This document shows positions 20,145-54,329 of a stretch of DNA of 64,000 bases, piece after piece. The DNA lies in NCBI RefSeq assembly GCF_025231485.1, contig NZ_CP104003.1, forward strand, positions 2,294,001 through 2,358,000, written 5' to 3'. The first letter of the stretch is position 1. Every line of letters starts with the position of its first letter. The position numbers and the translations under genes are program-made. The stretch is from Salinirubellus salinus. Lineage in GTDB: Archaea; Halobacteriota; Halobacteria; Halobacteriales; Haloarculaceae. Under the pieces are notes generated by a model. It did not search any database. It saw nothing but the letters and a program-made list of their open reading frames with translations, and had not been told where the DNA came from.

Positions 20145-20825
20145 CTACTCCGAGACGCCGGGGAGTCCACCGCGCCACGCCCGGTAGAGCGGCCCAGCGA
20201 CCAGCAGGACGGCGACGGCGAGCGCCGCCACCCCCAGCGGCACGCCCGCCGAGACGCCCTCGACCCGGAGCGTCTCGAGCGATGCCCCCAGCAACACCGC
20301 CGTCGTCACCCACGGCAACTCGCCCAGCGCCGTCCCCAGCGCGTACGCCGGCAGGCCGATGCCCGACAGCCCCGCGCCGTAGGAGACGGGGTCGGCCGGC
20401 AGCGGCGCGAGCCTCGCGGCCGCCAGCCCCCGCACGTCGCCGGTCACGGAGAGGAAGCGCGCACCGGTGTCGCCCGCGCGGCCGAGCAGGCCGTCGCCGC
20501 CCGCCTCGTCCAGCCCGGCGGCCCCCGAGCGCCGGGCCAGCAGGTACGGCGGCAGGCAGGTCACGACGGCCCCCGCGAGGCCGACGGGGATGGCCATCGG
20601 CCCGAACAGGTAGCCCAGCAGCACCGAGAGGACGCTGATGGGCCACGCGAGGAACGGACGGACGAGGTAGGCCACGAGGAGCGCGGGCGCGAACAGGAGC
20701 GGCCGCTCGGCGAGCGTCGAGAGCGCGTCGGCCACGCGGGCCGGGGAGGTGAACAGCACGCCCGCGACCACGAGACCCGCGAGGACGCCGACCGCCGCCA
20801 CCTGCCGTCTCGTCGCCCGGTTCAC
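20145..20825 (-). CDS. TVP38/TMEM64 (DedA-like) membrane protein
   Basis: 226 aa, GTG start at 20825. About five to six hydrophobic segments. The family signature region is present: RPFLAWPISVLSVLLGYLFG then AIPVGLAGAVVTCLPPYLLA, followed by SVTGDVRGLAAARLAPLPAD and PVSYGAGLSGIGLPAYALGT. The family is implicated in lipid scrambling or phospholipid transport. The gene is divergent from the gene at 21280, with a 454-bp palindrome-rich spacer between them. Confidence 0.85.
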   Translation of the reverse strand: MNRATRRQVAAVGVLAGLVVAGVLFTSPARVADALSTLAERPLLFAPALLVAYLVRPFLAWPISVLSVLLGYLFGPMAIPVGLAGAVVTCLPPYLLARRSGAAGLDEAGGDGLLGRAGDTGARFLSVTGDVRGLAAARLAPLPADPVSYGAGLSGIGLPAYALGTALGELPWVTTAVLLGASLETLRVEGVSAGVPLGVAALAVAVLLVAGPLYRAWRGGLPGVSE

Positions 20826-21279
20826 GCGTGTTCGTGGTTCCTGTCACGGCATACGCCTTCTGGTGTCTGTGGGTGGGGTGTCCGGGCTCCGTCGCAGTCG
20901 ACGGGTCTCGGTGGCGACGAGCGGAGGGGCGAGCACGGTACCACTGAACCGCACCACTCAACGGCCGCTCGGTCCGTGGACGCGGACCGGGACGGCGTGC
21001 CGGCCCTCCCCCGTTGCGACGAGACGCGCCACGGGCCGTCTGGTTCGGTCGGTCGGCCGACCCACTCGGCCTGTGCGCCTGCCGTGAGCGAAGCGAACGG
21101 GGGCGCACGATGGGGGAGGGCAGGGCCGCCGTGTCGCGCCAACCGGCGCGACCGGCCGTTGTGCGGCGCTGTCTCCCCTGTACCGTGATTCGCACGCTCG
21201 CTCGGTCCGAACGACCACTCGTTCGCCAACCCCTGACCACGGACAACGTTTAATCTAGCCCCACACCCACGGACTACCT
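20826..21279. other. Intergenic region holding a 254-bp nested imperfect palindrome
   Basis: No convincing ORF. Instead paired segments occur symmetrically: 20934-20941 with 21180-21187 (CACGGTAC/GTACCGTG), 20959-20967 with 21153-21161 (CAACGGCCG/CGGCCGTTG), and 21003-21012 with 21112-21121 (GCCCTCCCCC/GGGGGAGGGC). Each arm carries its own small hairpin at the matching place (CGGTCCG/CGGACCG on the left, GTCGCGCC/GGCGCGAC on the right). It could be a structured RNA or two inverted copies of a mobile repeat. A TATA-like TTTAATC at 21249-21255 serves the gene at 21280. Confidence 0.6.
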
Positions 21280-21639
21280 GTGCCGGACCGCGAACAGGTG
21301 GAACTGGGCGTCCAACTGCTCGAACGCCTCGAACACGCCGAACTCCCGCTGAGCGAGGTCATCGACCGCATCGAGACCATCACCTCGGACCCCGCGACGA
21401 CCCGCGAGATCCTCGACGTGGCCGAGATGCGCGGCGTCATCGACCGCGAGGACGGCGTCGTCCACGTCGCCAGCGGGAACTTCCTCTCGTTCCAGTCCGA
21501 GGTGGTGGAGAAGAAGGGGGAGTTCACCTGCAAGCGCTGCGGGGCGAGCATCTCGACGGGCTACTTCATGCAGATGAGAGCGGGCGATCTCGGGCCGTTC
21601 GGGTCGTCGTGTATCCGGAAGGTGACGGGACGGGAGTGA
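21280..21639 (+). CDS. Conserved haloarchaeal protein with HTH-like N-terminus and zinc-site C-terminus (DUF5830-like)
   Basis: 119 aa, GTG start about 28 nt after a TATA-like tract, so probably leaderless. Residues 1-65 look helical and winged-helix-like (TTREILDVAEMRGVIDREDG). The C-terminal part has FTCKRCGASISTG and SSCIRKV, a three- or four-cysteine cluster able to bind zinc. From memory it resembles DUF5830 of Halobacteria, function unknown. A regulatory or RNA-binding role is possible but unproven. Confidence 0.7.
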   Translation: MPDREQVELGVQLLERLEHAELPLSEVIDRIETITSDPATTREILDVAEMRGVIDREDGVVHVASGNFLSFQSEVVEKKGEFTCKRCGASISTGYFMQMRAGDLGPFGSSCIRKVTGRE

Positions 21640-54100: not shown

Positions 54101-54329
54101 GGTCGTGAGGTGGGTCCGGGGTGTTCGGTAACGACGTGCCGGGCAGCGGGCGGGACGGACGCCGTGGTGAGGAGGGGCCGAGCGCGTCGGGATACAGCGT
54201 GAACCGTACCGGAGCGCGACCCGTTCGATCTGCACCGCGCTGGTCTCCACGCTCCTCGCCACGGCACACGGTCGTGGAGAGTCGCTCGACACGAGGTGGG
54301 TCCCACGCCGAGCGAGACGGCCGGCTGGA

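Follow-up and report, generated by a model that had tools for sequence, protein, structure and literature searches.

A non-coding interspersed repeat with inverted, hairpin-bearing arms in the haloarchaeon Salinirubellus salinus: a probable non-autonomous mobile element

A nested palindrome between two divergent genes

A 254-bp nested imperfect palindrome is located at 20934–21187 of the window, by which we mean the whole 64,000-nucleotide stretch of Salinirubellus salinus DNA analyzed here (assembly GCF_025231485.1, contig NZ_CP104003.1, positions 2,294,001–2,358,000). A preliminary description of this locus offered three readings, and the question is which of them applies: a gene for a long rod-like RNA, two inverted copies of a dispersed element, or a bidirectional regulatory region. 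The palindrome and its mirrored arm hairpins were confirmed, and the outer 8-bp stem and the imperfect inner arms were located (Table 1). It lies, as described, in a gene-free spacer of 454 bp (20826–21279) between divergent genes, encoding a VTT-domain protein on the minus strand and DUF5830 on the plus strand. Both strands, whose folding had been recommended, fold strongly. A minimum free energy of −170.7 kcal/mol (z = −7.05) was obtained for the plus strand of 20934–21187 and −164.0 kcal/mol (z = −6.00) for the minus strand, and none of the 200 dinucleotide-preserving shuffles used as controls for each strand folded as well. The head between the two arms gave a fold z-score of −2.7 in this copy, and values between −1.4 and −4.0 in seven further ones. 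Since the GC content is 70% and short stems are common, a chance palindrome in a GC-rich spacer might be considered. It retains practically no probability, however, as the shuffles never reached the observed fold and about 37 loci were found, many with the same layout; the family of copies refutes it, and the remark that the structure is too ordered for chance holds.

A family of inverted arms dispersed in one genome

When the 254-base sequence was compared with its own genome (4.38 Mb, two contigs) using BLAST, 13 matches including itself were obtained at E ≤ 0.001, the own-genome matches at this threshold showing 69–84% identity, and 48 were obtained at E ≤ 1. A covariance model (R1) was then built from an alignment of 22 arms. 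Its application to the genome, which is the single-arm search proposed in the preliminary description, identified 51 arm matches at E ≤ 0.1 in approximately 37 loci; the large contig holds all of them and the second contig none. A search of the fetched regions at E ≤ 1 gave 57 arm matches, of which the weakest may be chance. The second of the three readings, that of a dispersed element in two inverted copies, was hence right in substance, as the arm recurs about 50 times, often as an inverted pair. Fourteen loci contain two inverted arms and a head, with 238–394 bp between the outer arm ends. A head-less mini form was observed at at least two loci, and the remaining loci contain a single recognizable arm. 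The arms are inverted in the 14 full and 2 mini elements, so that terminal inverted repeats are present. A second type of head (type B), which is longer and accompanied by one arm without the hairpin, is common to several copies. The copies are mostly 65–80% alike, and among near-full-length matches the highest identity, 78%, was that between two type-B copies.

Each arm carries, going inward, TTCTGTGnCGnCGAGCG, then an end motif followed by CGGTAC, and then a stretch that is partly conserved and ends in GGCCGG, before the hairpin and ACGGCnnCCTGCCCTCCCCCG. The end motif appears in two forms, designated T (GGGGAGACTAGCG, with CTAG near the end) and S (CAGACGCGCGARTCR, GCGARTCR). Most complete elements possess one T and one S arm and are hence directional; L092 and L093 (3032753) are exceptions. 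In the window copy, the left arm is a degenerate T (CGAGCA) and the right arm a clear S. Conservation among the 51 arms fades 20–29 bp outside CGGTAC, which places the bounds of the window copy at approximately 20907 and 21214. The described extent of 254 bp hence holds for the palindrome, but the real unit is slightly larger, approximately 310 bp. In L076, L081, and L091, the orientation of the head between the T and S arms is reversed, as if arm–arm recombination had flipped it. A motif resembling the outer end (CTGTGGCGACGAGCG-like) is found in tandem just outside the elements at L085:4131–4190, L089:4075–4130, L092:3870–3933, and L094:13887–13940. The window contains 14 CTAG sites against 50.4 expected and 86 GATC sites against 228 expected, yet many T arms keep CTAG at their end.

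Table 1. Features of the repeat copy and its surroundings in the window.
Feature	Position	Strand	Basis
VTT-domain (DedA/TVP38-like) membrane protein, flanking gene outside the repeat	20145–20825	−	Pfam PF09335, E 2.6e-14
Whole repeat copy	~20907–21214 (approximate ends)	+	Arm matches and conservation profile, 51 arms
Left arm, T-like, GAGCGGAGGGGCGAGCACGGTAC...CCCTCCCCCG	20911–21013	+	Model R1, 76.0 bits, E 7.4e-11; arm typing
Outer 8-bp stem, 5' half, CACGGTAC	20934–20941	+	Pairs with 21180–21187; sequence, fold
Imperfect arm stretches	20948–20976 / 21144–21172		76% complementary
Left arm hairpin, CGGTCCG..CGGACCG	20970–20989	+	7-bp stem, 6-nt loop; homologous hairpin covaries across 22 arms
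Inner stem, 5' half	20992–21012	+	86% complementary to 21112–21132
Head, three small hairpins	21014–21110	+	~21016–21029, 21033–21072 (core GGCC..GGCC), 21073–21108; folds
Right arm (S), GAGCGAGCGTGCGAATCACGGTAC...CCCTGCCCTCCCCC, in the opposite orientation to the left arm	21111–21211	−	Model R1, 89.7 bits, E 3.3e-13; arm typing
Inner stem, 3' half	21112–21132	+	86% complementary to 20992–21012
Right arm hairpin, GTCGCGCC..GGCGCGAC	21133–21152	−	8-bp stem, 4-nt loop; sequence, covariation
Outer 8-bp stem, 3' half, GTACCGTG	21180–21187	+	Pairs with 20934–20941; sequence, fold
DUF5830, flanking gene outside the repeat	21280–21639	+	Pfam PF19148, E 1e-53
Probable degenerate head-less mini-copy	54163–54262	.	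Two weak R1 matches, one per strand (21.8 and 16.1 bits); palindromic, after an ORF end

The copies are intergenic, and the neighboring genes, whose orientations were assigned by a simple ORF heuristic, are convergent, tandem, or divergent, convergent pairs being common. By eye, these neighbors resemble ordinary cellular genes. Two similar genes (M29-type aminopeptidase-like by eye) at L090:3728–5254 and L093:4054–5538 have repeat arms on both sides, which could reflect cargo, segmental duplication, or coincidence. The 1.4–3.6 Mb region, about half of the chromosome, holds 34 of the 37 loci (p = 5e-7 in a test devised post hoc; p = 0.012 for the largest empty gap). Nothing was found that sets the window locus apart from the other approximately 37 loci.

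Of 29 relatives, 25 retain the divergent VTT/DUF5830 pair, and in these the distance between the aligned starts is 71–162 bp against 455 bp here, leaving no room there for the repeat. When the repeat of approximately 308 bp is subtracted, the spacer becomes approximately 147 bp, which is inside the range of the relatives. A B-type copy occupies the gap between the genes for SecD and RNase HII, which, taken from the aligned ends, is 440 bp here and approximately 2–240 bp in most of the relatives in which the two genes are still close neighbors. These short orthologous spacers, found in most relatives for the two gene pairs examined, support an insertion that would have occurred in this lineage. 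The suggestion of a bidirectional regulatory region thus found no support as a general function, because the element is also located between convergent and tandem genes and the same divergent pair has a short spacer in relatives.

No match to the family was detected in 38 relatives at E ≤ 0.01, nor in a further 145 genomes of the same taxonomic family at E ≤ 0.001 or in 391 other genomes sampled from the order, all of these genomes being from outside the genus of the source organism. In the 145- and 391-genome searches, scoring was limited to the top 27 or 10 candidates of each genome, and a weak or solitary copy may have escaped detection. BLAST gave no match in phage, plasmid, and virus collections. 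Pattern searches of public genomes other than its own returned 13 scattered single matches in unrelated bacteria, which were taken as chance, and three viral patterns returned 0, 1, and 0 matches, the lone one (L191) reaching only 13 bits under the arm model and likewise taken as chance. As far as searched, the family therefore appears to be restricted to this haloarchaeal lineage. The open-access literature on haloarchaeal palindromic repeats yielded the classes known from Haloquadratum and no description of the present family, and the approximately 310-bp repeat is apparently an undescribed family of a known kind of element. In Haloquadratum walsbyi, three classes of transposase-free repeats have been defined, namely MITEs, palindrome-associated transposable elements (PATEs), and small mobile repeats (SMRs) (PMC3119063).

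Tests of coevolution in the small hairpins and the long stem

Compensatory changes in the palindrome were found in one of its parts and not in the other. In the small arm hairpin, 96.6% of the cells were paired, and double changes were observed in 9 of the 12 pairs. Forty-six cells were changed on both sides, as compared with 11.4 in shuffles, and this covariation was destroyed when the partner was slid by one to three bases. The arms used here were collected by sequence similarity and not by a structure model, so that the hairpin was not built into the alignment. A full-length alignment of ten elements was too gappy in its right half for a test of the head, and the arms were used instead. In the test of the long arm–arm stem, the arms of one element formed Watson–Crick pairs at 62.8% of positions, against 63.0% ± 1.1 when each left arm was matched to the right arm of a randomly chosen other element (p = 0.56), and double changes numbered 55 within elements and 59 after permutation. 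Permutation of alignment scores gave p = 0.07–0.97 depending on the stretch, and with a sample of 16 elements the inner stem (p = 0.096) may have a weak effect. The consensus shared by the two arms is what produces the long stem, in which no coevolution was seen; the long palindrome is a by-product of two inverted arms and not an RNA rod. A striking palindrome can hence mislead, as coevolution is absent from the eye-catching long stem and present in the small hairpins. Template-switch repair can yield compensatory changes without selection (PMC8794818), and since it is a possible source of the paired changes, the hairpin covariation does not prove a function.

A structured non-coding RNA, a long rod with side hairpins that is encoded many times and acts as RNA, could account for the strong fold of both strands and for the covariation of the arm hairpin, and three type-B copies (L083, L087, and L089) fold 14–18 kcal/mol better in the T-to-S direction. 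If an RNA from one strand were under selection, G-U wobbles should exceed A-C mismatches on that strand. The arm hairpins, however, contained 12 G-U and 17 A-C pairs with no clear strand pattern, and the 14 elements showed no consistent strand preference, their mean folding energy differing by −1.2 kcal/mol between strands. The Rfam search gave no match at the gathering threshold or at E ≤ 1, so that no described RNA family was recognized. The wobble counts, the equal folding of the strands, and the absence of an Rfam match favor a strand-neutral origin of the hairpins at the DNA level. The rod form of the RNA was rejected on the arm permutation, in which the long stem showed no coevolution, together with the strand tests; the rod-like RNA of the preliminary description was thus not borne out, and a structured non-coding RNA of this kind is improbable.

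Rival functions and the mobile-element reading

The repeat could also serve the host. One possibility is a protein-binding chromosomal landmark, such as a nucleoid, segregation, or recombination site, that is beneficial and was multiplied in this lineage. Inverted arms with conserved ends fit dimeric binding, CTAG is rare in the window and yet retained in many T arms, and 34 of 37 loci are gathered in 1.4–3.6 Mb; but that clustering test was devised after the data were seen, the size and form vary widely (head A, head B, mini, and single-arm), and no match was found in the 145 other genomes of the taxonomic family, so we regard a landmark as unlikely. ERIC and NEMIS repeats of bacteria are thought to act as mRNA 3'-end or processing elements or as insulators, and a similar role between genes, however the repeat was spread, would suit the copies that often fill convergent-gene spacers and start approximately 30–80 bp past the stop codon. 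Copies are also located between divergent genes, however, including the one in the window; the region contains no T-tract terminator-like sites, and a general effect of GC-rich hairpins is indistinguishable from a specific one. Such a role is consequently improbable as well. A search of the region for an intrinsic terminator or a sigma-70 promoter found neither; sigma-70 promoters are not applicable to archaea.

Given its dispersal, its presence where relatives are empty, its inverted arms, and its maintained local hairpins, this non-coding, lineage-restricted interspersed repeat is probably a non-autonomous mobile DNA element of a foldback, PATE/SMR-like type, whose mobility we infer. A putative enzyme supplied in trans would recognize the arm through its fixed sequence together with the hairpin, read by its shape after extrusion as a single strand or cruciform, and would insert the element into gene spacers. 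The existence of truncated and mini copies agrees with such an element. The strongly diverged copies give no sign of recent movement, and copies mostly 65–80% alike suggest that most are old and would have diverged or been truncated since insertion. No flank repeat above background, as expected for a target-site duplication, was detected in 16 elements, and decay in old copies is a possible reason. The genome possesses a single Y1 transposase gene (PF01797), and no arm was found within 1.5 kb of it, so that this Y1 search identified no IS200/IS605 partner. Old, hairpin-rich selfish DNA is the best reading of the repeat, in preference to a specialized RNA or a regulatory switch. A bolder version, which we consider doubtful, is a new kind of archaeal mobile DNA whose inverted ends, consisting of hairpins conserved in shape and free in sequence beside the fixed T and S motifs, would be read in folded form by an enzyme with no relation to the known transposases, the two ends being told apart as in single-strand transposition.

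Comparison with known repeat classes

ERIC, NEMIS, and BIME/REP sequences of bacteria are imperfect palindromes between genes that occur in many copies within one lineage. The present repeat resembles them in these respects, by description and not by sequence, whereas it is archaeal and its head is more complex. Unlike REP/BIME sequences with a RAYT, no copy here is adjoined by a RAYT-type (Y1) gene. MITEs are similarly short, non-coding, inverted at their ends, and dispersed in gene spacers, and a target-site duplication is often, though not always, present in them. Here, no target duplication was found, and the Y1 search identified no parent transposon sharing these ends.

Closer likenesses are found among the haloarchaeal classes. 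The present family and PATEs are both short and non-coding, with many diverged haloarchaeal copies, near-terminal palindromes, no target duplication seen, and short forms consisting of the termini only beside long ones. The near-terminal palindrome corresponds here to the covarying arm hairpin, which type-B copies do not have in one arm. PATEs, however, contain no inverted terminal repeats and share their ends with IS605-type transposons (PMC3119063), whereas the ends here are inverted arms for which the Y1 search found no IS605-type partner. SMRs likewise have inverted ends, no target duplication, a length too short to code, and no known parent transposon, the last of these judged here by the Y1 search. 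Their copies are commonly >95% alike, A-type SMRs are approximately 110 bp long, and their mobilizer is unknown (PMC3119063); the present copies, in contrast, are approximately 310 bp long and mostly 65–80% alike. Recognition of haloarchaeal SMRs has been called enigmatic (PMC3119063), and hairpins of conserved shape and free sequence beside fixed end motifs provide a concrete lead on how transposase-free repeats are recognized. Because the present family fails one defining feature each of SMRs and PATEs, it is filed under neither. With it, a haloarchaeal genome gains a repeat family that is apparently undescribed and that would be new as a family, although its kind is known.
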